A stretch of 64,000 nucleotides of DNA from an uncultured Bacteroidales bacterium. Lineage in GTDB: Bacteria; Bacteroidota; Bacteroidia; Bacteroidales; P3. The notes under the pieces were generated by a model. It saw only the letters and a list, made by a program, of their open reading frames with translations. It made no database searches and was not told the origin of the DNA. This document shows, piece after piece, positions 1 to 50,573 of this stretch (position 1 is its first letter; every line of letters starts with the position of its first letter). The stretch lies in contig CAMWNM010000003.1 of the NCBI GenBank assembly GCA_947175635.1, positions 1 to 64,000 on the forward strand. Direction: 5' to 3'. The position numbers and the translations under genes are program-made.

Positions 1-129
1 ACCGGAGTATCTTCAGCGTCAGCTAAAGATACGAAAAGTCGAGCGCAGAAGAAAACCCAAGGTTTGCTTCTGCCGAGACCGGAGTATCTTCAGCGTCAGC
101 TAAAGATACGAAAAGTCGAGCGCAGAAGA
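1..129 (-). repeat. Tandem palindromic intergenic repeat, copy A
   Basis: One complete unit (26-90) and the first half of a second (from 103) repeat with a 77-bp period. Each unit is an imperfect palindrome: the outer arms are AAGATAC (26-32) and GTATCTT (84-90), and the inner arms are GCAGAAG and CTTCTGC around an AAAACC/GGTTTG stem. The second unit breaks off at about 130, where the htpG terminator stem begins. Related copies lie near 15.2, 34.7, 49.05 and 50.47 kb. The repeat points leftward, towards whatever gene lies beyond base 1. Confidence 0.85.
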
Positions 130-206
130 AAAATCCCCGGAAACATCGGTGCACCCTGCCGAAAGAACCTCTCTTCCGGCCTCTTCACCTTATGCCCGGG
201 GATTTT
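130..206 (-). terminator. Long nested terminator hairpin after htpG
   Basis: The arms AAAATCCCCGG (130-140) and CCGGGGATTTT (196-206) enclose nested GGTG/CACC and GCCGaAAGA/TCTTcCGGC stems. On the minus strand the helix ends in a T-run, as expected for an intrinsic terminator about 25 bases after the htpG stop. The apical part is larger than in a simple terminator. Confidence 0.6.
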
Positions 207-3211: not shown

Positions 3212-4051
3212 TTAGCGGGCCGTCTCTATCTTTCCTGTGGCGCGGTTAAGTTCCGAACCGCCCAGGCTGTGCGGCAGACAGAATACCCCCAGCATCACCA
3301 CCGCCGCAGCCAGCACGACCCAACGGCCGGCTTTTCCGGCAAAGATCGTTACCCCCCAGGCGAGAAGGAAGGCAACCAATGCTATCAAGGTTTTGTTGTC
3401 GGTAAGGTCGCCGCCCAAGGGGAAACCCGACCAATAGACACCGAAAGCATGGTATTGCACCAGACACCCGAAGATAAACCCGCCCAAAAGCAATCCTATG
3501 AGTGTAAAAAGACCGTAACGTTTGTAGAGGGGATTGTTGCAAAGAGCCGCGATACCCGCCATGGCGGCGTAAAACATGGCCAGAAACATCAGCAGGATAT
3601 GGGGTATCAGGATACCGGCCGGCACTTCTCCCTTATAACGGATCACAAGCGGGGCGTCGGCAAAGTACGCTACCCCGTCGGCCTCCACATAATAAGCCAG
3701 CTTGCCCGCCATTGGCTGGGAGGGCAGAAAACCCACCCATTTCCCTTTTTCCCAATGCATGGACACCGGCGTGTATTCCTGTCCCTCCACCAGAGGATAA
3801 TGACGGTAATAGAGCGTGGCCGAAGCCGTTCGGGTAGCCGTGGAGGCACCCGAAGTTCCGTTCAAGGCACAAGGCACCCACACAGGCGTACCCTTGCCCT
3901 CTGTACCGCTGCGGGGGAGAGAGAATTTCACTTCCTTTCCCTCCGTCTTCACCTTCCCTTTGGCCGGATGGGTAGGTCCGGTCATGCGCTGAAAGGCGGC
4001 AAAAAAAAGGGTGAGCGCCACCGCTATCAATATCATCCAGGATTTTTTCAT
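3212..4051 (-). CDS. Membrane protein with extracytoplasmic N-terminal domain, unknown function
   Basis: A 279-residue protein. Residues 1-20 form a signal anchor. Residues 25-150 are a beta-rich, probably periplasmic domain rich in aromatics (YYRHYPLVEGQEYTPV, KLAYYVEADG). Four or five membrane helices follow between about 150 and 265. Residues 56-72 are low-complexity Thr/Ser/Ala. I do not recognise the family. It sits directly downstream of a LytS/LytTR pair and upstream of two small proteins in one operon, so it may be a target or partner of that signalling system; this is inference from position only. Confidence 0.8.
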   Translation of the reverse strand: MKKSWMILIAVALTLFFAAFQRMTGPTHPAKGKVKTEGKEVKFSLPRSGTEGKGTPVWVPCALNGTSGASTATRTASATLYYRHYPLVEGQEYTPVSMHWEKGKWVGFLPSQPMAGKLAYYVEADGVAYFADAPLVIRYKGEVPAGILIPHILLMFLAMFYAAMAGIAALCNNPLYKRYGLFTLIGLLLGGFIFGCLVQYHAFGVYWSGFPLGGDLTDNKTLIALVAFLLAWGVTIFAGKAGRWVVLAAAVVMLGVFCLPHSLGGSELNRATGKIETAR

Positions 4052-4063
4052 ATCATCGCTTTT

Positions 4064-4861
4064 TTAGTAAGTAAGCCACTGCTTGAAACTTTCGGCCTTT
4101 TCCTTGCTCACCAGCACCGGCTCCTTAAATTCCGGGGTGAGGGAAACCGATATCTTTCCCTGAAAATAGTCTTCTATCTTTCCCACGGCCCGGCTGCAAA
4201 GCAGTATCTGCCGGGTGGCGCGGAAAAACACCGCGGGATCCAGCTCATCGCCCAGTCGGTCGAGCGAATAATCCACCACCATAGACCCCTGCTTGAATGT
4301 CTGGGCGTAGGTAATCTTGTTTTCGCTGAAAAAATAGGCCACGTCTTCCACCAAAAGCACTTCCATTTGCTTGCCGCGCTGCATCAGGAAACGATTGCGG
4401 TAAAGTTTTTCCGGATTGGCTATTTTTTGCGGAAACTCCTTCCAATTGCTCTTTTCGTTGAGCTGACGGAAGTAAGCGGCCGTACGTTTCTCAAACTTTT
4501 CCAAACTCATGCGCAGCCTGTCCATTTCGATGGGCTTGAGCAGATAATCGATACTGTCGACCGAAAAAGCCCGGAGGGCGTATTCATCGTAAGCGGTGGT
4601 AAACACTATCATCCCCTGCGGCCGCACTTCTTCCAGAAATTCAAATGAAATGCCGTCGCTCAATTCGATATCCAGAAAAAGGATATCCGGTTCTCTCTTG
4701 TTGGCCTTAAACCAAGCCACAGCCTCTTCGTTGCTGCCTCCGATATGCGTCACTTCCCATTCGGGACGCAGGGAGAGCAACATCTTCTTCAGCAGACGGG
4801 CGGCGGGAACTTCGTCTTCCACTATGGCCACCCGCACGTTATTTTCCTGTTTGGTTTCCAT
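4064..4861 (-). CDS. LytTR-family response regulator
   Basis: A 265-residue DNA-binding response regulator. The receiver domain spans residues 10-125, with the acidic pocket at Glu15/Asp16, the phospho-acceptor Asp64 in the stretch LFLDIELSDG, and the conserved Lys in DYLLKPIE. A LytTR DNA-binding domain fills residues 160-262. It overlaps the 3' end of the sensor kinase gene by 23 bases, which implies translational coupling and a cognate pair. LytTR regulators bind direct repeats in promoters, but I could not identify such a site here. Its targets may include the three membrane or coiled-coil genes that follow in the operon. Confidence 0.95.
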   Translation of the reverse strand: METKQENNVRVAIVEDEVPAARLLKKMLLSLRPEWEVTHIGGSNEEAVAWFKANKREPDILFLDIELSDGISFEFLEEVRPQGMIVFTTAYDEYALRAFSVDSIDYLLKPIEMDRLRMSLEKFEKRTAAYFRQLNEKSNWKEFPQKIANPEKLYRNRFLMQRGKQMEVLLVEDVAYFFSENKITYAQTFKQGSMVVDYSLDRLGDELDPAVFFRATRQILLCSRAVGKIEDYFQGKISVSLTPEFKEPVLVSKEKAESFKQWLTY

Positions 4862-15174: not shown

Positions 15175-15358
15175 TGTCGAGGCTTACGAAAAACGTTGGT
15201 CTGCGACCGTCGTTTAATCGCCTCGGCATTGCCCAAACAAGTTTGGTCTCTGCTCTCGGCTTACGAAAAACGTTGGTTTTCAACCGACTTTTTTCTCGCC
15301 TCGGCAGAATCCAAGCACGCTTGGCTTCTGCTCTCGGCTTACGAAAAACGTTCAAACT
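15175..15358 (+). repeat. Tandem palindromic intergenic repeat, copy B (three units)
   Basis: The segment GGCTTACGAAAAACGTT starts at 15181, 15258 and 15336, giving periods of 77 and 78 bp. Between repeats are palindromic cores. The last is GCAGAATCCAAGC facing GCTTGGCTTCTGC (15304-15330). The core is the same as in copy C but the base pairs differ in a compensated way. The array points towards the lytic transglycosylase gene and ends 10 bases before its start. Confidence 0.85.
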
Positions 15359-21853: not shown

Positions 21854-21871
21854 CAATGGTCGAAAAGACTT

Positions 21872-21945
21872 TAACCCGGGGTGCCGAAAGGCTGAGATCA
21901 GACCCATATAACCTGATGCGGGTAATGCCGCCGTAGGGAATGTTC
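21872..21945 (+). promoter_or_regulatory. TPP riboswitch (THI element)
   Basis: The conserved blocks occur in order: GGGGTGCC, GGCTGAGATCA, ACCC, ACCTGATGCGGGTAATGCC and CGTAGGGAA. They match the pyrimidine-binding and pyrophosphate-binding arms of the thiamine pyrophosphate aptamer. No terminator stem follows before the first gene (21993), so control of translation initiation is more likely than attenuation. Confidence 0.95.
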
Positions 21946-21992
21946 TTCTGCATTTTGCTTTCCCCTGCCCTTATTCTTTGATTGAAGAAACC

Positions 21993-33120: not shown

Positions 33121-34596
33121 CTATCTCGGCGAATAATTGGGGGCCTCCTGCGTGATGGTGATATCATGCGGATGCCCTTCGTTTACCGAAGCAGGCGTAA
33201 TCTTGATAAATTTCGCTTTTTGCAAAGCCTTGATGTCTTTGGAACCCGTATAACCCATACCGGCACGCAAACCGCCCACCAGCTGATGCAATACTTCGGC
33301 CAAGGTTCCTTTGTAGGGAACCCGCCCTACGATGCCTTCCGGCACCAGTTTCTTGATATCGGCCTCCATATCCTGAAAATAACGGTCTTTGGAACCGTCC
33401 TGCATGGCCTCCAGCGACCCCATACCCCGATAAGTCTTGAACTTCCGGCCCTCATAGATAATCGTGGCACCCGGCGACTCTTCGGTTCCGGCAAAAAGCG
33501 AACCGGCCATCACGCAAGACGCTCCGCCTGCCAGCGCCTTCACTATGTCGCCCGAATAGCGGATACCGCCATCGGCAATCAAAGGGATCCTGTATTTTTT
33601 CAAAGCCTGGGCCACATTATGCACCGCGCTCAACTGAGGCACGCCGATGCCGGCCACAATGCGGGTGGTACAGATCGAACCCGGCCCTATACCCACCTTC
33701 ACAGCATCCGCACCTGCTTCGGCTAAAGCCACAGCCGCCTCGGCCGTAGCGATATTGCCCACCACCAGATCCACCTTGTCTCCAAATTTCTTCTTGAATT
33801 GCATCGCAGCGCGCAAGACCCCTGCCGAATGTCCGTGTGCGGTATCGATCACTATGGCGTCCACCCCCGCTTCCACCAACGCCGCCGCCCGCTCCATCAT
33901 ATTGGCGGTGATGCCGATACCGGCCGCCACGCGCAAACGCCCCGAAGCGTCTTTGCACGCCATCGGTTTCGACTTCACGTTCATAATGTCGCGGTATGTG
34001 ATCAATCCTACCAACTTGCCGTTCCTATCCACCACGGGCAGTTTCTCGATCCGGTGTTTCTGCAGTATCTCGGCCGCTTTGTCGAAAGAGATCTTCCCCG
34101 TTGCCGTAATCACATCCCGGGTCATCACGTCGGTAATCTTGCGCTTGTAGTTTTTTTCAAACCGCAAGTCGCGGTTGGTAACGATACCCAACAGTTTGCC
34201 GGCTGCATCGGTTACGGGAACGCCCCCCACCCGATAGCGCTTCATCAAATCCAAGGCATCCTGCACCAAGGCCGTGTGCGGCAAGGTGATGGGGTCGGTG
34301 ATCATGCCGTTTTCGGCACGCTTCACCTTTCTTACTTCTTCGGCCTGCGCCTCAATACTCATGTTTTTGTGCAATACGCCGATACCGCCCTCCTGAGCGA
34401 TGGCGATAGCCAGCGAAGCGTTTGTAACCGTATCCATGGCCGCGGACACAAAAGGAATGTTGAGCTTGATATGCCGTGAAAACCAAGAGGTGATATCCAC
34501 TTCCCGTGGCAAAACCTCCGAATAGGCTGGCATCAGCAACACATCATCATAAGTCAGACACTCTTCCACAATGAACTTACCGGCAGAATCCCTCAT
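33121..34596 (-). CDS. guaB: Inosine-5'-monophosphate dehydrogenase
   Basis: The 491-residue enzyme oxidises IMP to XMP, the first committed step to GMP. A TIM-barrel is interrupted by two CBS domains (about residues 95-210). The catalytic Cys lies in [13 protein letters not shown] near 305, the phosphate loop in [10 protein letters not shown] near 340, and the flap in [10 protein letters not shown] near 390. It heads a five-gene minus-strand run with three chaperones and moxR. The pairing of a purine gene with envelope chaperones seems to be genomic habit and no functional link is obvious. Its promoter box lies inside repeat copy C. Confidence 0.97.
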
Positions 34597-34665
34597 AACG
34601 TATTTGTTTTCAATTTACTAAAAATCCCTCCACCCAAACACCGAAAATGCCTCGGGACAGAAAGA

Positions 34666-34673
34666 CAAAGATA
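34666..34673 (-). promoter_or_regulatory. -7 box (TATCTTTG) of guaB, inside repeat copy C
   Basis: A perfect TAnnTTTG match on the minus strand, about 70 bases before the guaB ATG. It is formed by the last bases of the repeat unit (TATCTT) plus the flanking TG. The other unit of the array reads TATCTTGA at this point, which breaks the consensus. Confidence 0.55.
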
Positions 34674-34807
34674 CGAAAAGCCGAGCGCAGAAGCAAACCC
34701 GGTTTGGTTCTGCCGAGGCTCGAGTATCTTCAACGCCAGTTCAAGATACGAAAAGCCGAGCGCAGAAGCAAACCCGGTTTGATTCTGCGCCAGGCTCGAG
34801 TATCTTC
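34666..34807 (-). repeat. Tandem palindromic intergenic repeat, copy C (two units)
   Basis: Two units start at 34668 and 34743 (75-bp period). Each has outer arms AAGATAC / GTATCTT and inner arms GCAGAAGCAAACC / GGTTTG-TTCTGC. The array fills nearly all the space between guaB and the EamA transporter gene and reaches into the transporter stop codon. It points towards guaB. Confidence 0.88.
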
Positions 34808-35738
34808 AGCCGTTCATTTCCATCTGCGCCCTTGATTTGCTGCGTGTAACCAGAAACACACCGGAAAAAACCAGCAGCGTGGAGATGGCCTTGAGCCAGC
34901 CAAAACCGTCCTGCCCCAGAATCAAAGCCAGACAAGCCGCCGTAACAGGCTGTACATAGTTATACACGCTCAACACCGTGGGACGGATGCGCTTTTGCGC
35001 CACCGGAATCAAAAGATAGGTAAAACAGGTGGCGCCCAACACCGTATAACCGAGGAAAAGATAGATTTTCAACGGCATATCGGCATAATTCACCGCCGCC
35101 GCATACCGGAAAAGAAAGGGCGCGGAAAGGATACATGAAAAAAGAAACATCCACCGCATCACCGTTACCGGCCTGTAACGGGCCACCAGATTGCGGAACG
35201 CGGTAAGGTAAACGGCATACGAAAGCCCGCTTATCAAACAGAGGACGATCCCGAACAGACTGTTCCTGCCGGCCTCCGCAACCACCTCGCCCGTCCAATA
35301 TTTACCGGCTATCATAATCACCGCGCCGCTCAGCCCGAGGAACACGCCTCCCGCCTTCATCCACGAAATAGGCTCCTTCAGAAAAAACGCCGACAGCAAC
35401 ATGGTCAGAATCGGTGTAAAAGTTACCACGATGGCCGTTTCTACAGGAGAGGCATATTCCAGTCCCATCACAAACAGCATCTGGTTGAAGAGAACCCCAA
35501 AAATCGCCGCCAAAGCCAAACCGCCCAGATCGCGCAACGGCACTTTCTCCCATTTCACAAACAAGGAAAGCAGCCAAAAGAAAATCACCGCGCCTGTAGT
35601 CCGGAAAAACGCCATGCCGAATGCCGAAACATAGTCGGGCATCACGATTTTAGACACCGGGATATTGACTCCGAATATGATATTGCTTGCCAAAATGGCA
35701 ATATGCCCTTTATAAGCGCCCTTGTCCTGATACGGCAT
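34806..35738 (-). CDS. EamA-family (DMT) transporter
   Basis: A 310-residue inner-membrane protein of ten helices made of two EamA repeats (about residues 10-145 and 160-300). Typical marks are FWRTTGAV-like FFRTTGAVIFFW near residue 45 and SPVETAIVVTFTPILTML near 95. The substrate class is probably amino acids or metabolites; no substrate can be assigned. Its last codons and stop run into repeat copy C. A TAnnTTTG box lies 24 bases upstream of the start. Confidence 0.92.
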   Translation of the reverse strand: MPYQDKGAYKGHIAILASNIIFGVNIPVSKIVMPDYVSAFGMAFFRTTGAVIFFWLLSLFVKWEKVPLRDLGGLALAAIFGVLFNQMLFVMGLEYASPVETAIVVTFTPILTMLLSAFFLKEPISWMKAGGVFLGLSGAVIMIAGKYWTGEVVAEAGRNSLFGIVLCLISGLSYAVYLTAFRNLVARYRPVTVMRWMFLFSCILSAPFLFRYAAAVNYADMPLKIYLFLGYTVLGATCFTYLLIPVAQKRIRPTVLSVYNYVQPVTAACLALILGQDGFGWLKAISTLLVFSGVFLVTRSKSRAQMEMNG

Positions 35739-42223: not shown

Positions 42224-45200
42224 ATGAAAATGCGCAATTATCGGATAACGGCATTGCTACTGTTGTTCGGCATCGGTTGCCCTGTTTTTTCCCAGACAGT
42301 GCCTTCACCGCAAGACTGTACCCCCGAAGTAACCCAAATCCGCGACAACAAGGTTTCGCTTGTATGGAACAATGTAGAACCCACTTACGGCATTCTCGAC
42401 GGTTTTGAAGAGCATGAAGATTTCGCCATCAATTCTCCCGGAAAAGTAGGTTGGAGTTACTTGGATATGGACAACGACAACACCTACAACATCGGTGATT
42501 ATATCTACGAGAATGCAGGACGTCCCATGGCGTTTCAGATATGGGTTCCCTCCAAAACCATTCCGGCCTATCCCTACGAAAAGGCGATGCCCCATACCGG
42601 AAACAAGTGCCTGGTGTCGATGGCCACTATCACCGATAAACGGAACGACTGGCTGATCAGCCCCGATCTGTCTTCGTTCGCATTCACAGACAACATAACC
42701 CTTTCGTTCTGGGCCCGCTCCATCAGCAGCAGCTACGGTACGGAAACGGTAAAAATAGCTTATTCGCTTACCGACAAGGACCTGTCTTCCTTTACGTTTC
42801 TCAACAACGGACTGACCACTGAGATTCCCGCTAGTTCAACCGCTCATCCGGGCATGTATTACTTCTCTTTCTCCATTCCCAAAGAAGCCCGTTATGTAGC
42901 CATCAACTGCGTTACGGACGGCGGACAGGCACTGTTCATCGACGACGTGGCCATCGCGACCAACCGGGTGATGCCCAACAAGGCGGCCCCCAACTATCTG
43001 ACGGGATTCAACGTTTACCGCGACGGGGTGAAAGTAAACACCGCCCTGATTACCGAACATGCCTATACGGACGAAGTGGATGTCTATGGCATGCACGAAT
43101 ACCGGATCGAATCCGTCTTTGAAACGGGTGATCCCGTCAAAGGCAAGGCGCTTGAAGTGGATGTACCCAACATCCACCTCCTGCCGTTTGTCGAAACATT
43201 TGAAAGCTATAGCTTTGAAACCAACTTCTGGGAAACCTCGTGTCCGGAAGATTGCCCCAACGATGGTTGTTGGTGGAAACTCGGCTTCCGAGATGAGGGC
43301 CTGATAGATGAATCGGCCGAATTCTATCCTTCTGCGCAATTGAAGGATTATTCCGATTATTGCCTTGTGAGCATGGAGTTTGACGCCACCTCGTTAAGTG
43401 AGGTGATGCTGTGCTACGATCTGTCGCTGTATGCCTACTCGGGCGGCACAACGCATGAGGTGATGGCCGTGGAGGTGCTTTCAGGAGATGAATGGGTAAA
43501 AGTGGCCGAACACAGCAACGATAAAGGAAGTTTCTCCTACACCCGTTTCTATTCGGATATTTCAACCCTTGTTGCCGGCAAAAAATTCAAAATCCGTTTC
43601 AATGCCAAGGGCGAGAATGCCTACAGCATCATCTCTTGGTATATCGGCTATGTGCGGCTGTATGAAAAAGCGCAGGCGGACGTATCAGGAACGGTTCTTT
43701 GCGGCACAGAACCTGTAGAGGGCGCCACCCTTCTGTTCACCAGCCCCGAGAACGATGTTTATTCCACCCTGACCGCGGCCGACGGAACCTATTCGATTAC
43801 CGGAATGGATGCTTCCCGATACGCCTTGTCGGCCACATTGACGGGGTACAATCCATATACGGACACCCTGGAGATAGCGAAAGGGAGCGAAACGGTAGAT
43901 GTGTCCATGACCCGGCCCCGGATCGGGATGGATGCCTCTGCACGGACACATACGCTGGCGGCGGAATCCATGGAAACGGGCAGCATCAGCCTGCAAAACA
44001 CCGGTAACGGACATGCAAGGATCAGCCTCTGGACCGACTATGCGGACAAGCGTGTTTCGGCCGCGCCTGCGCTGAAACCGATTAAGACTTTCAACACTTC
44101 CAATATCCTGCAAGCGGCCATCGGCTTCGACGGAGAGTATTTCTATCTGGCACGCAGCGATGAATACGCCGGTGATGCCTTGATTTATAAATACGACAAG
44201 GAAAACAACTTCCTGGGTACGTTCATGCCCAATATCCATGTGCGCCGCTATTTCGGCATGGCCTTTGACGGAGAGAATTTCTATACCGCCAACGGCGACA
44301 ACATCATCCGTATATTCAATATGAGAGACGGCATACAACTGGGAGAGATCGCCTCCGGAATCGAAGGGATATGCCACATCACCTACGATGAAGCCCAAGA
44401 CGCTTTCTGGGTAGGTTCTCTCAATACCTTGGCCTTGGTTGACAAAAACGGGCGCACCTTGGTAGAAGAAGTTACCTTCAATTCCGAGGAGGTGCTGTTT
44501 TCCGGCGTTGCCTATGACCCCTACTTCAAAGACGGCCCCTGCCTGTGGATCATGGACCGCTCGCGCGGCAACAATCCGTTGAGCGCCTATACCAAGGCGG
44601 TTATCCGTCGTATCGACCTTGCCTCCATGCAGCTCAAAGATGACTATGCTTTTCCTTGCGACAAACTGCCCGGATTCCGCTATGGCGGCGATGACATGAA
44701 CGGTCTGGTATGGGGCGAAGGTCTGTTCGGGTCCTCCCGTTACCGGGAAGGGCATTTCGTGCTGATGGGGGTTATAAACGCCAATCCCGGCCTTGTAGGC
44801 ATCATCGATATGTATGAGGTAGCCGACTGGCTCCAAATAAAAGACGGATACACTCTCAGCATGGAAGCCGACGGCAACCGTTCCGTATCCTATACGGTAG
44901 ATGCCTCCGGCATGTTGGAGAATGAAACACATGAGGCCACCGTCATTCTCCGTCTCGATCCTTATTCGGAGCCCTTGCGGTTTGAAGTAACGGCCAATGT
45001 GAATGCGAAGGCTCCATACGCCAGGCCGCTTGCACTTACGGCCACGACCGAAAACGATCAGACCGCCCGACTTGCCTGGCAAGCCCCCGATGCCACGCAG
45101 ACGCCCGGCAGTTACAACATCTACCGCAACGGCGAAAAAATCGCCTCTTCCTCTACGCTTGCCTATACCGACAACAACCTCAAGGCAGGCGAATATACCT

Positions 45201-48200
45201 ATGCCGTTTCTGCTCTTTATGCCGACGGCACCGAATCGGCCTTGAGCCATGAGGCGGAAGTCTCCATCGAGGTAGGGATTGCCTGCTATGCACCTTTCGA
45301 CCTGGTTGCCTCCAACGTACAGAATAAATCTATCGCTTTGCGCTGGAAAGACCCATCGGAAGTGGGTACCCAAGCAACCACCCTGCGTTGGGACAACGGC
45401 AAAAACACCAACGGAATCTCCGGCCCCGGAGATTTTGTAGCCGCGGCTTCCTGGGCACCGCAAGACCTGACACCTTACCGGAATATGCTTTTGCAAGAGG
45501 TAAGCTTTGTTCCCAAAACCGCGCTTGCCGCCTACTCCATCCTGATTTATGAAAACGATGCCGAAGTACAGCGCCAAGCGGTGGATGCCAAAGACATAAC
45601 CGTAGATGAATTCGTTACGGTAAACTTGGAAAAAGCCTACCGGATCGATGCCGGAAAAACACTGAAAGTGGGCGTGGAGGTAAAATACACTACCGCAGAC
45701 ATAGCCTTGGCCATAGGAGTGGACGGAGGTCCCTCCGTTCCCGAAAAAGGCAACTGGATCTACATGCGCGATTATGGTTGGTTCACCATCGCTTCGGTAG
45801 GGCTGTCTGACGCCAACTTCAATATCGCCCTGGGCCTGGCCCCCAGAACGGAAAGCGAATCGCCTGCCAACGGATTCAATATCTACCGCGACGGAACCAA
45901 AATCAACACCGCTCCGGTAACCGAATGCACCTACAGCGATCCCGTTGCGGAACCGGGTATTTACAGTTATAGCGTAAGCGCTCTTCACGACAACGGGGAA
46001 TCTTACCCCTGCGAACCGGTACTTGCCCGGATCGTGGATATTTCCGCGCACAATGCACCCGAAGACCTTTCGGCCAACATATCGATGAACCGGCAGGTTT
46101 CCTTGCGCTGGAACTATCCCAACACCCGAATGTCTTCCCAATCCAAGGCGGCCGAATACAAGCCATTGGGATACATCGGTCACTTCAACGCGCTTCAACC
46201 CAATGAATCGGCGGTTGTTACCGACGGACAATACATCTACACATCCCACCGCAACCGCAACGGCGAGTTCCACAAATACGACATGGCCGGCAATTTCATC
46301 GAAACCTTCCAGATAGCCGATGCAGGCGCCGTTACCGACCTTACCTACGACGGCCGGTATTTCTACGCTTGCGGCGCCGGCACCACACTGTATTGCCTCG
46401 ACTTCGAGACCCGCCGCATCGTAAACCGGATGACCGTTACCGAAACGGCGCGCCACCTCACCTATATCCCCGACTTGGACAACGGCAAGGGCGGTTTTGA
46501 ACTCGGCGACTGGACCAGTTCGGTGTTCGTGAACATGGACGGCACCTTTATCGGCAACGGATACTCAGGCCTGGACGGTGCTTACGGAGCAGCCTACAAC
46601 GAGGGCAAACTCTACTATGCGCAACAAGGCGGGGCAGGCTTATGCGAAGTGATGGAACTGGATTACGCCACCCTCTCCCCCACCGGAAACAGTGCGGATT
46701 TCAGCGATTCCAAGACGCTGAACCTGGCCGAAGGCACCCGTTCGGGCGGTCTTGACCTCTATATCGCGCCCAACGGTACGGCAACGCTTTTGCTTGTTCT
46801 CCAGCAACCCGCACCCGACCTCAACAAGATTGTGTTTGTGGAAGCCGACAGAACGCCTTACGTATCGGGTTTCAACCTATACCGCGACGGAACCAGAATC
46901 AATACCGGGGAAATCCTCAATAGAGAATATGCCGATGCGTTGAATACGCCGGGCACTTACAGCTACACGGTTTCAGCCATCTATCTGGACGGTGTGGAAA
47001 GTCCCGAAAGCGCCCCCTTGGCCGTTACCATCGTGGCCCCCACCCACTGCGAAGCCCCGGTTGACGTGAATGCCATAGCCCAAAAGCGGGATGTACGCCT
47101 GCAATGGACATCTGTCATCGATAGGGAAAACCGCGGCGATGACCTCGAATCCTACAATCACCTTGCTTCCGGAACGGTAGGTAATTGGAAAACCATAGAC
47201 GGCGACGGCAGAGAAGTATATTTCTCCGATGATTTCGCTTTCCTCGGAATGGGGGACGCCAAGACGTTCTTTATTCTGGATCAGACCCGTATCGATGCCG
47301 AAAACGGAACATACGCGTTTTCCGGCAACAAATCCTTTGTGGCGGTAGCCGCCTGGAGTTCGGAAGAGGAAATGGCCGTAAGCAACGACTGGATGATCAC
47401 CGAAGCCAAAACCTCGGATGGAAAGGCGGCCAAATGGATTTCGTTCATGGCGCGCGGTCTGCAAGCCGGCTATAAGGAAAATTTCTATGTAGCTTACAGC
47501 ACCATGGGCATGGACACGGCCAATTTCATTCCTTTCACCTCCTTTGCCGAAAGAGTCGATTACCTGTGGACCCGCTACACCTACCTCTTGCCTGAAGATG
47601 CAACCTACGTGGCCATCCACTACACCTCTATCGACGGCCGGGCTTTGTTTATCGACGACGTGGCCATGGGGGCGGAAGCCTGTCCGTTTGAAACGAGAAG
47701 CGACTACGGTTCCGATGAGGAACTTACCGAAGCCGTGGTTGGCTACTACATTTACCGTAACGGCACACGTTTGAACACTGAACCGATAAACGCATGCAGT
47801 TTCTTCGACGGCGGGTTGGCAAACGGCGAATATGCCTACGAAATACAGGCTCTCTACAATACCTCCTGCGAAAGTCAAAAGAGCGCACCGGTAACGGTGA
47901 AAGTGGAATACGAAAATCCTTGCAACGCACCTGCCGGACTAACTGCGAAGGCAACGGGAACAAACGTGGAACTTTCGTGGACGGAACCGCTTTACGATGA
48001 AAACAAGGAACTTACCTACATAAAGGATATGACGCCTGCCGGGTATGCCGGATTTACCGTGGCTTCCACCTACTATCTGGCACAGAAATGGGATACGGCC
48101 GACCTGATGGGCGTTTTCGGCTACCGCATCACGGCTGTGGGCGCCGCCTTTGCCGCCGCACCTTCGGCCCTTTCGTTGCTTATTTACCAAGGAGGAGAGG

Positions 48201-48901
48201 TGATGTATGAACAAGACATCACCGATGACTGCACGGACATGTTCTCCGTATTCACGCTCGACAAACCCTATCAGATCGACTATTCCAAAGACTTGATGGT
48301 GGCTTTCCGCGTTGAAGCCGAAGCGGGCTATCCCAGCCTGATCTATACCGCCGACGTTCCCGACGACGGATACGGCAACCTTTATTCCGACGATGGTAAA
48401 GAGTTCTTCTCCGTTTTCGGTTTATGGAACGGAAACTGGTTTATCGTAATGAGCCTTGAACTCGGATTCCCGCAATCGGGCAGCGATCTGGAAGGCTACC
48501 GCATTTACCGTGACGGCAGCGCCCTTTCGCAAACCTTGATAAAGGACAACACCTATACCGACACGGAACTTGCCAACGGCACCTACCGGTATCAGGTAGC
48601 GGCCGTTTACACAAGTTGCGGTGAAAAAACGGGCAACACGGCCACCGTTACGATAGGTACCGGTAATGAAAAAGAAGAAGCGTTCCTGATTTCCATCTGG
48701 CCGAACCCCGCGCACAACACAGTCTGGGTTTCGGGCGAATACGGCAAACTGGAAATTCTGGATATGCACGGCAAGGTTCGTCTTGGCAAAGAAGCCGGTA
48801 AAGACGGTAGCCTCGATATCAGCCATCTCGCCGCCGGCGTGTACTTCATACGCATCGAAACAACCGGTGGACAGCAAGTAAGGAAATTGATCGTTTGGTA
48901 A
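42224..48901 (+). CDS. Giant gingipain-type adhesin with Fn3 modules and type IX sorting domain
   Basis: A 2225-residue surface protein with signal peptide (1-24). Cleaved-adhesin-like jelly rolls are at about 60-240, 319-480 and 1636-1813 (each ends near ALFIDDVAI or similar). A carboxypeptidase-regulatory domain is at 487-562. Two propeller-like stretches are at 626-870 and about 1310-1530. Six Fn3-like modules carry the signature GFNxYRDGTxINT and end in YSVSALxxNG. A sorting domain (about 2153-2225, ISIWPNPAHNTVWV, GVYFIRIETTGG, KLIVW) closes the protein. The modules resemble the haemagglutinin/adhesin parts of Porphyromonas gingipains, without any protease. It probably binds host or polymer ligands. 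Confidence 0.92.
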   Translation: MKMRNYRITALLLLFGIGCPVFSQTVPSPQDCTPEVTQIRDNKVSLVWNNVEPTYGILDGFEEHEDFAINSPGKVGWSYLDMDNDNTYNIGDYIYENAGRPMAFQIWVPSKTIPAYPYEKAMPHTGNKCLVSMATITDKRNDWLISPDLSSFAFTDNITLSFWARSISSSYGTETVKIAYSLTDKDLSSFTFLNNGLTTEIPASSTAHPGMYYFSFSIPKEARYVAINCVTDGGQALFIDDVAIATNRVMPNKAAPNYLTGFNVYRDGVKVNTALITEHAYTDEVDVYGMHEYRIESVFETGDPVKGKALEVDVPNIHLLPFVETFESYSFETNFWETSCPEDCPNDGCWWKLGFRDEGLIDESAEFYPSAQLKDYSDYCLVSMEFDATSLSEVMLCYDLSLYAYSGGTTHEVMAVEVLSGDEWVKVAEHSNDKGSFSYTRFYSDISTLVAGKKFKIRFNAKGENAYSIISWYIGYVRLYEKAQADVSGTVLCGTEPVEGATLLFTSPENDVYSTLTAADGTYSITGMDASRYALSATLTGYNPYTDTLEIAKGSETVDVSMTRPRIGMDASARTHTLAAESMETGSISLQNTGNGHARISLWTDYADKRVSAAPALKPIKTFNTSNILQAAIGFDGEYFYLARSDEYAGDALIYKYDKENNFLGTFMPNIHVRRYFGMAFDGENFYTANGDNIIRIFNMRDGIQLGEIASGIEGICHITYDEAQDAFWVGSLNTLALVDKNGRTLVEEVTFNSEEVLFSGVAYDPYFKDGPCLWIMDRSRGNNPLSAYTKAVIRRIDLASMQLKDDYAFPCDKLPGFRYGGDDMNGLVWGEGLFGSSRYREGHFVLMGVINANPGLVGIIDMYEVADWLQIKDGYTLSMEADGNRSVSYTVDASGMLENETHEATVILRLDPYSEPLRFEVTANVNAKAPYARPLALTATTENDQTARLAWQAPDATQTPGSYNIYRNGEKIASSSTLAYTDNNLKAGEYTYAVSALYADGTESALSHEAEVSIEVGIACYAPFDLVASNVQNKSIALRWKDPSEVGTQATTLRWDNGKNTNGISGPGDFVAAASWAPQDLTPYRNMLLQEVSFVPKTALAAYSILIYENDAEVQRQAVDAKDITVDEFVTVNLEKAYRIDAGKTLKVGVEVKYTTADIALAIGVDGGPSVPEKGNWIYMRDYGWFTIASVGLSDANFNIALGLAPRTESESPANGFNIYRDGTKINTAPVTECTYSDPVAEPGIYSYSVSALHDNGESYPCEPVLARIVDISAHNAPEDLSANISMNRQVSLRWNYPNTRMSSQSKAAEYKPLGYIGHFNALQPNESAVVTDGQYIYTSHRNRNGEFHKYDMAGNFIETFQIADAGAVTDLTYDGRYFYACGAGTTLYCLDFETRRIVNRMTVTETARHLTYIPDLDNGKGGFELGDWTSSVFVNMDGTFIGNGYSGLDGAYGAAYNEGKLYYAQQGGAGLCEVMELDYATLSPTGNSADFSDSKTLNLAEGTRSGGLDLYIAPNGTATLLLVLQQPAPDLNKIVFVEADRTPYVSGFNLYRDGTRINTGEILNREYADALNTPGTYSYTVSAIYLDGVESPESAPLAVTIVAPTHCEAPVDVNAIAQKRDVRLQWTSVIDRENRGDDLESYNHLASGTVGNWKTIDGDGREVYFSDDFAFLGMGDAKTFFILDQTRIDAENGTYAFSGNKSFVAVAAWSSEEEMAVSNDWMITEAKTSDGKAAKWISFMARGLQAGYKENFYVAYSTMGMDTANFIPFTSFAERVDYLWTRYTYLLPEDATYVAIHYTSIDGRALFIDDVAMGAEACPFETRSDYGSDEELTEAVVGYYIYRNGTRLNTEPINACSFFDGGLANGEYAYEIQALYNTSCESQKSAPVTVKVEYENPCNAPAGLTAKATGTNVELSWTEPLYDENKELTYIKDMTPAGYAGFTVASTYYLAQKWDTADLMGVFGYRITAVGAAFAAAPSALSLLIYQGGEVMYEQDITDDCTDMFSVFTLDKPYQIDYSKDLMVAFRVEAEAGYPSLIYTADVPDDGYGNLYSDDGKEFFSVFGLWNGNWFIVMSLELGFPQSGSDLEGYRIYRDGSALSQTLIKDNTYTDTELANGTYRYQVAAVYTSCGEKTGNTATVTIGTGNEKEEAFLISIWPNPAHNTVWVSGEYGKLEILDMHGKVRLGKEAGKDGSLDISHLAAGVYFIRIETTGGQQVRKLIVW

Positions 48902-49020: not shown

Positions 49021-49115
49021 GCCATGGCAAGGCTGTAGCGCAAAAGCCAAGCTTTCCCGGATTATTGCCGGGGCGATTAAGCATCGGTTGAAAACCAACG
49101 CTGCCTGCCGAGCGT
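49021..49115 (-). repeat. Diverged copy D of the intergenic repeat
   Basis: Read on the minus strand, the segments CGTTGGTTTTCAACCGA, TCGCCCCGGCA and GCTTGGCTTTTGCGCT follow in the order and spacing seen in copy B (15.27-15.35 kb), with a few mismatches. It lies between two convergent genes, so it is not in a promoter. Confidence 0.65.
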
Positions 49116-49186
49116 ATAAAGAACGGAAAACACAATCTTTCGGGAAACAACAAGCGGCCTCAGAGAAATCCCCGGCCGGCAGACAT

Positions 49187-50392: not shown

Positions 50393-50451
50393 GGTTACGG
50401 TGAATCAAATTATCGGAAATACAATTAAAAGAAAGAAGGTAACTTTCAACT

Positions 50452-50488
50452 GCCTTGGCTCAAGCCAAGTGTGCTTGGATGCTACCGG
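50452..50488 (-). repeat. Short copy E of the intergenic repeat core
   Basis: On the minus strand, ATCCAAGCACACTTGGCTT (50462-50480) matches the palindromic core of copy B with one mismatch in 19. Flanking arms are not conserved. It also overlaps CTTGGC-TCAA-GCCAAG, an extra small hairpin. It lies in the leader of the MFS gene and points towards it. Confidence 0.6.
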
Positions 50489-50573
50489 TAGGTTTCCTTC
50501 ATTCCATGGAGTGGCCGTCAAGCAGATTCCGAAAACAACGGAAACTGCCCGCATACCGCCCTGCCGGCGGGGC

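Follow-up and report, generated by a model that had tools for sequence, protein, structure and literature searches.

The window, by which we mean the whole stretch of 64,000 nucleotides analyzed here, belongs to a contig of an uncultured Bacteroidales bacterium, and a short palindromic element recurs in it both in tandem and at distant places. The locus of array B (Table 1) raises the question of what such an element does in the genome: whether it is an ordinary silent repeat, whether its hairpins act as RNA or as DNA, and whether the compensated changes in its stems reflect selection.

Copies of the element and its two subfamilies

As shown in Table 1, three clear arrays and two decayed copies of the element are present in the window. 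The original prediction described five places carrying the same element, with copies A, B and C in tandem at a period of 75-78 bp. All five places and the period are confirmed, but the copies are of two kinds, as A and C belong to one subfamily and B, D and E to another. The decayed copies D and E are barely detected by the hairpin model, but in alignment with intact type-2 units each of them outscores all 300 dinucleotide shuffles.

Table 1. Positions in the window of the element copies and associated features
Feature	Position	Strand	Remarks
Array A, type 1	1..135	-	at contig start; one complete unit, and a second of which only the right arm is intact
Array A, whole unit	22-80		model match; hp1 core 45-73; right arm of second unit ~120-130
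Array A, -7-like boxes TATCTTTA	24-31 and 101-108		hp2 ~7-32 and ~84-109
Array B, type 2	15181..15358	+	units 15219-15276 and 15297-15354, with a partial unit 5'
Array C, type 1	34664..34811	-	units 34664-34720 and 34739-34796
Array C, hp1 cores	34687-34713, 34762-34788		hp2 34722-34749; 5' partial hp2 to ~34811
Array C, gene-proximal -7 box TATCTTTG	34666..34673	-	69 nt ahead of guaB start codon
Array C, -33 box TTTG	34694..34697	-	in hp1 right arm, exactly 20 nt upstream of -7 box
guaB (IMP dehydrogenase), target of array C	33121..34596	-	Pfam IMPDH, E 1.9e-158
Copy D, decayed type-2 unit	49037..49120	-	alignment to intact type-2 units
Copy E, decayed type-2 hairpin and part of second hairpin	50441..50494	-	alignment to intact type-2 units

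The two subfamilies have the first hairpin, hp1, in common and differ in the second hairpin, hp2. In type 1, TTTTCG or TTATTCG comes after hp1 and then TATCTTTG, and the second hairpin is GTATCTT..AAGATAC, for which the covarying variants GTACCTT..AAGGTAC and TTATCTT..AAGATAA are found. The second palindrome of type 2 is of the kind AACGTYGG..CCRACGTT or AAACGTTGG..CCRACGTTT, and it has no -7 box.

Units were searched for with R1, a covariance model of hp1 built from an alignment of units. In this genome (2.01 Mb), 72 units were found in 46 arrays, of which 22 have one unit, 22 have two and 2 have three. The element thus has further copies outside the window. The density first proposed, approximately one locus per 12 kb, holds only locally and includes the decayed copies, while the genome-wide value is approximately one array per 44 kb. 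Many contigs of the source genome begin or end inside an array (C3, C5, C17, C29, C39, C43, C54, C57, C59, C61 and C71), so the number and length of the arrays are probably underestimated.

The type-2 arrays of the source genome show no fixed direction, with 11 on the same strand as the downstream gene and 12 on the opposite strand. When they lie in gaps between co-directional genes, 8 of 10 share one orientation, which is not significant alone. Type-2 arrays (for example L028, L191 and L197) often occupy gaps in which both flanking genes run the same way, and their hp2 stops a few nucleotides short of the downstream ATG, a position from which it could shape translation initiation. Array B has no TAnnTTTG box, and its 3' end is approximately 11-14 nt ahead of the ATG (15369) of an SLT transglycosylase gene. 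Type 2, with the common hp1 and no promoter, resembles a REP-like sibling located in transcribed gaps.

Elsewhere in the window, a TPP riboswitch (RF00059, 64.9 bits) lies at 21867-21957 on the plus strand, and a 2225-aa, probably secreted protein with a rhamnogalacturonan lyase-like domain, fn3 and a Por secretion tail is encoded at 42224-48901, also on the plus strand.

Covariation of the stem and conservation of its base

The stems quoted in the original prediction, flanked by GCAGAA and TTCTGC, are right: AAAACC/GGTTTG in copy A, CCAAGC/GCTTGG in copy B and CAAACC/GGTTTG in copy C. In a plain MAFFT alignment of 35 units of the source genome, 93.3% of the cells pair, and 8 of 15 pairs are altered on both sides; the number of cells changed on both sides is 44, compared with 13.1 ± 4.0 in shuffles, and the pairing falls to approximately 42% when the partner is slid by one column. 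In the alignment of 92 units, nearly all of them from the genus, 16 of 17 pairs are altered on both sides, and one outer pair of the stem is U-A in 44 units, C-G in 25 and G-C in 6. The 194 cells changed on both sides, compared with 70.0 ± 6.5 after shuffling, indicate that the compensated changes are real and the covariation strong.

Palindromes can regain symmetry through template switching, and covariation alone is therefore no proof of selection on the hairpin, as the original prediction had suggested in setting selection against mere duplication. Part of the covariation is probably due to template switching, as suggested by loops that are flipped between orthologues (AAGCAAGCTT / AAGCTTGCTT). 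The base of hp1, however, is kept by its letters and not by its pairing, with CTCGGCA on the left and TGCnCTCGnCTT on the right, where TC against CT stays unpaired. These mismatches are also present in other families and mostly uncorrected across the order, and the base (CTCGGCA/TGCnCTCG) is conserved across the Bacteroidales families, which argues that constraint exists as well.

Tandem pairs of units fold into a single long hairpin (z -8.8). No Rfam family was found on the units, either at the gathering threshold or at E 0.5, and no long T-tract follows hp1. In one locus (L184), sub-threshold matches to RT-7 RNA (RF03028) of 77 and 60 bits are found at 4041-4186 and 209-417.

The -7 box of type 1 and its orientation toward genes

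The main clue to the function of type 1 is its -7 box together with its orientation toward genes, both of which the original prediction overlooked, while the dispersal, the genome-wide copies and the covariation that it described stand. The sigma-ABfr consensus of Bacteroidetes has TAnnTTTG at -7 and TTTG at -33 (PMC7366714), and the type-1 sequence TATCTTTG is a Bacteroidetes -7 box at a near-fixed distance past hp1. Among element-free genes of the window and of two related genomes, G007 and G010, TAnnTTTG is found within 100 nt upstream in the sense direction in 93 of 235 and in the antisense direction in 30, and it is commonest 20-50 nt ahead of the start.

In the source genome, all type-1 arrays with a known downstream neighbor (16 of 16) face a same-strand gene or ssrA; the array first called opposite is the one at ssrA, and the tmRNA begins approximately 15 nt past it. 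The gene that array A would serve lies past the contig end. In G007, G010 and a set of named loci, 77 of 78 arrays face a same-strand gene, compared with a random-orientation baseline of 0.59-0.63 (p about 1e-14 or lower). The distance from array to start is mostly 4-60 nt, where the gene calls come from a small codon-usage model and the starts are approximate; most of the genomes searched are MAGs. The terminal box TATCTTTG is present in 72 of 82 arrays of G007, G010 and the named loci, a frequency inflated in the named loci, since these were found via a pattern ending in TATCTTT, which does not affect orientation. In approximately 18 of 77 arrays (L134, L145, L147, L149, L167 and others), the -7 box is only 4-9 nt ahead of the ATG, from which nearly leaderless mRNAs are predicted; such mRNAs are reported to be rare in B. 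thetaiotaomicron, where approximately 3.7% of 5' UTRs are under 10 nt (PMC7366714).

The last base of the -7 box depends on the place of the unit in the array. In the source genome, 12 of the 15 gene-proximal copies end in G, whereas all 19 internal or contig-end copies end in A or T (hypergeometric p ~8e-7, worked out by hand; a separate test on hand counts agreed), and the full consensus is kept only in the copy able to serve the gene. In other species, many internal boxes (29 of 51) are intact, and the arrays there may be tandem promoters. In 18 of 26 type-1 units of the source genome, a TTG precedes the -7 box by exactly 20 nt; this -33 box is not universal, as TTG is found at other spacings in species with other stems. 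As in a dispersed repeat that carries a promoter, the consensus lies inside the type-1 repeat, and the repeat is co-directional with genes and near their starts.

The targets of type 1 are mainly housekeeping genes such as guaB, pyrH, prfA, ruvB and tmRNA, with tRNA genes in other families. Those in the source genome look like pyrH, guaB, ppiB, pdxS, tgt, lemA, prfA, purN, ruvB and others, as named from reading the proteins, with a Pfam test for guaB only. A single regulon was considered and rejected, the 91 target genes being spread over 73 clusters. The element stands before different genes in different species: guaB in nine other species has no element, and several of these have a native promoter-like box near the same place.

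From the sequences, we strongly infer a promoter function of type 1 and infer mobility of the element. The type-1 units are probably dispersed promoter modules composed of a hairpin and a -7 box, which stack in tandem upstream and would spread and duplicate by means of the hairpin. Each unit of approximately 75 bp combines hp1, an imperfect hairpin in which the base is conserved and the stem covaries freely, with the -7 box TATCTTTG past it, and this box doubles as the left arm of hp2 (GTATCTT..AAGATAC). Transcription of the adjacent gene would be started by the -7 box of the gene-proximal unit, in many cases together with a TTG -33 box that lies within hp1's right arm, and hp1, which would lie upstream of the transcript, would act there as DNA. 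Further units are piled up upstream as tandem duplicates, gained and lost in steps of one unit, and the hairpin may allow spread or duplication through an intermediate that is single-stranded or cruciform, made by a cellular or other enzyme. The element thus looks like a spreading, self-duplicating on-switch and not an ordinary silent repeat.

As to the function of hp1, the most serious alternative is that it is an operator, bound by a protein controlling a dispersed regulon, the copies arising by recruitment of a good promoter-operator cassette. This is unlikely; hp1 covers the -33 to -13 region and reaches upstream of it at a near-fixed position, and its base is conserved across families, whereas the stem, the part that a dimeric protein would be expected to recognize, changes freely with the pairing kept, the loop length is variable, and the target genes are unrelated and many of them housekeeping. 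An RNA-level element, with hairpins in 5' leaders or between operon genes affecting stability, translation or termination, is an unlikely reading of the family as a whole. The stem covariation fits it, and so do, for type 2, the shared orientation in co-directional gaps and the nearness of hp2 to the ATG. However, the predicted start is downstream of the gene-proximal hp1 of type 1, which hence would be outside the transcript, 45 of 86 arrays outside the source genome have a single detected unit, and both a long T-tract past hp1 and an Rfam match are absent from the units. An RNA role is accordingly unlikely for the gene-proximal type-1 hairpins and possible for type 2.

That the elements are neutral palindromes kept symmetrical by template switching, with the compensated changes mutational and not selected, is quite unlikely. 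The loop inversions between orthologues are a signature of quasi-palindrome correction, but the TC against CT mismatches at the stem base have been left mostly uncorrected over the whole order, and a gene-directed orientation is not expected of neutral repeats. It is highly improbable that the element is of the REP/REPIN type, mobilized by a RAYT and placed before genes only incidentally. Its palindromes are of REP size, with tandem pairs folding into one long hairpin and many copies per genome; nevertheless, the REP/RAYT link suggested by the original prediction fails in a search that covered Y1_Tnp (PF01797) only, as this gene is absent from the source genome and from all 13 genomes of the genus (0 of 13), with 5 of 14 controls positive. 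Moreover, a GTAG tag is found in only 2 of 92 units, and REPs are mainly downstream of genes (PMC3733652), whereas type 1 is upstream and co-directional. CGTC stands at the start of hp1 in 30 of 92 units, where it is part of the covarying stem and not an unpaired tag.

Spread of the element and relation to known repeats

The history of the arrays was traced in G007 and G010, two species with approximately 93% identity over most syntenic stretches. Of their orthologous arrays, one has the same length in both and three differ by exactly one 75-bp unit, the third as judged from reading the alignment. One G010 gene has the element up to the -7 box, and its G007 orthologue has unrelated upstream DNA with the same box and gene downstream, which indicates that the 3' boundary of the array is the -7 box. 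The 5' boundary varies, and no common outer ends are seen; TATCTTTG is found at both array ends in some loci, which could be duplication. No clean empty site with both flanks intact was found among the compared loci, so insertion, as against duplication or conversion of a promoter, is unproven. In one locus (L291:1440-1640), the -7 box and approximately 20 nt including the first bases of tRNA-Gly (GCGAAAATAG) are repeated on either side of a hairpin insert of approximately 50 bp. This direct repeat was dropped as a candidate target duplication, as further units of the same genome (L303) also contain GCGAAAATAG.

Each of the 12 other genomes of the genus contains 12-130 matches, and six other genera of the family have 0-2 matches each. 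A pattern scan found carriers in Alistipes (many MAGs and the isolate A. muris DSM 112343) and in Odoribacter lunatus DSM 112344. The window therefore most likely belongs to a genome of Alistipes type, and an initial assignment to Chlorobium was dropped, the named hits being Alistipes. The order-level search with R1 (E up to 1e-5) gave matches in 12 of 133 sampled genera, the source genus included, with up to 35 per genome outside this genus. The matches in other genera have the common layout with species-specific stems and hp2, and they sit ahead of genes including tRNA-Gly and tRNA-Arg. In other Bacteroidales families, those with a -7 box and a called neighbor are in the same direction in 27 cases and opposite in 2, one of which fronts tRNA-Arg. 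Outside the order, no convincing match was found with a wider model, R2, at class level, a weak test in which 14 candidates per genome were scored; this search added little, and its two hits beyond the order are near chance level. The plasmid search gave no match, and the viral contigs contain no exact match to the element. Two scaffolds from human faeces labeled 'Bacteriophage sp.' (L327, L328; MT838590.1, MT838894.1) carry the element in front of genes; these are unverified, unannotated records and may be mislabeled bacterial DNA or a case of phage carriage.

On a broader scale, it is conceivable, though doubtful, that such hairpin promoters occur throughout Bacteroidales, spread via a single-stranded or cruciform intermediate by a non-Y1 enzyme, join genes at the -7 box in place of housekeeping promoters, stack, and tune expression by the number of units.

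The BrickBuilt MITE of Porphyromonas gingivalis (PMC4596501) is likewise a multi-copy, intergenic element of Bacteroidales with tandem repeats and promoter elements. However, it has a 23-nt minisatellite between a leader and a tail, inverted ends and bidirectional promoters and lies 49-591 nt from genes, whereas the present element is a 75-bp double hairpin with one one-way promoter per unit, often 4-60 nt from the start codon, and with no leader or tail seen. The Correia repeat enclosed elements of Neisseria (PMC2649163) are likewise dispersed and have end promoters that alter the expression of neighboring genes; they have inverted repeats around a core, whereas the present element shows no common ends of this kind and has its promoter as part of a tandemly stacking hairpin unit. 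The GTAG- and CGTC-tagged REPs (PMC3733652) are also small palindromic intergenic repeats with dimers and many copies, and the CGTC REPs are also without a dedicated transposase; they differ in having 20-40 bp, an unpaired tag and a position mostly downstream of genes, where type 1 is upstream and has CGTC in a covarying stem. Native sigma-ABfr promoters (PMC7366714) have the -7 TAnnTTTG and -33 TTTG in common with type 1 but are not embedded in a conserved repeated hairpin. No description of the element was found in the open PMC set, the only set searched, and its novelty is provisional.

The arrays may also explain breaks in assembly, as several contigs of the source genome end inside them. 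If the proposed explanation is true, a case of stem covariation would mark a DNA and not an RNA structure, and a ready set of promoters would be available for work in gut Bacteroidales. A sizeable share of the promoters in a major gut genus would then come from a repeated, duplicating element and not from the genes' own sequence, and the gain and loss of units would be a natural source of quick change in expression.
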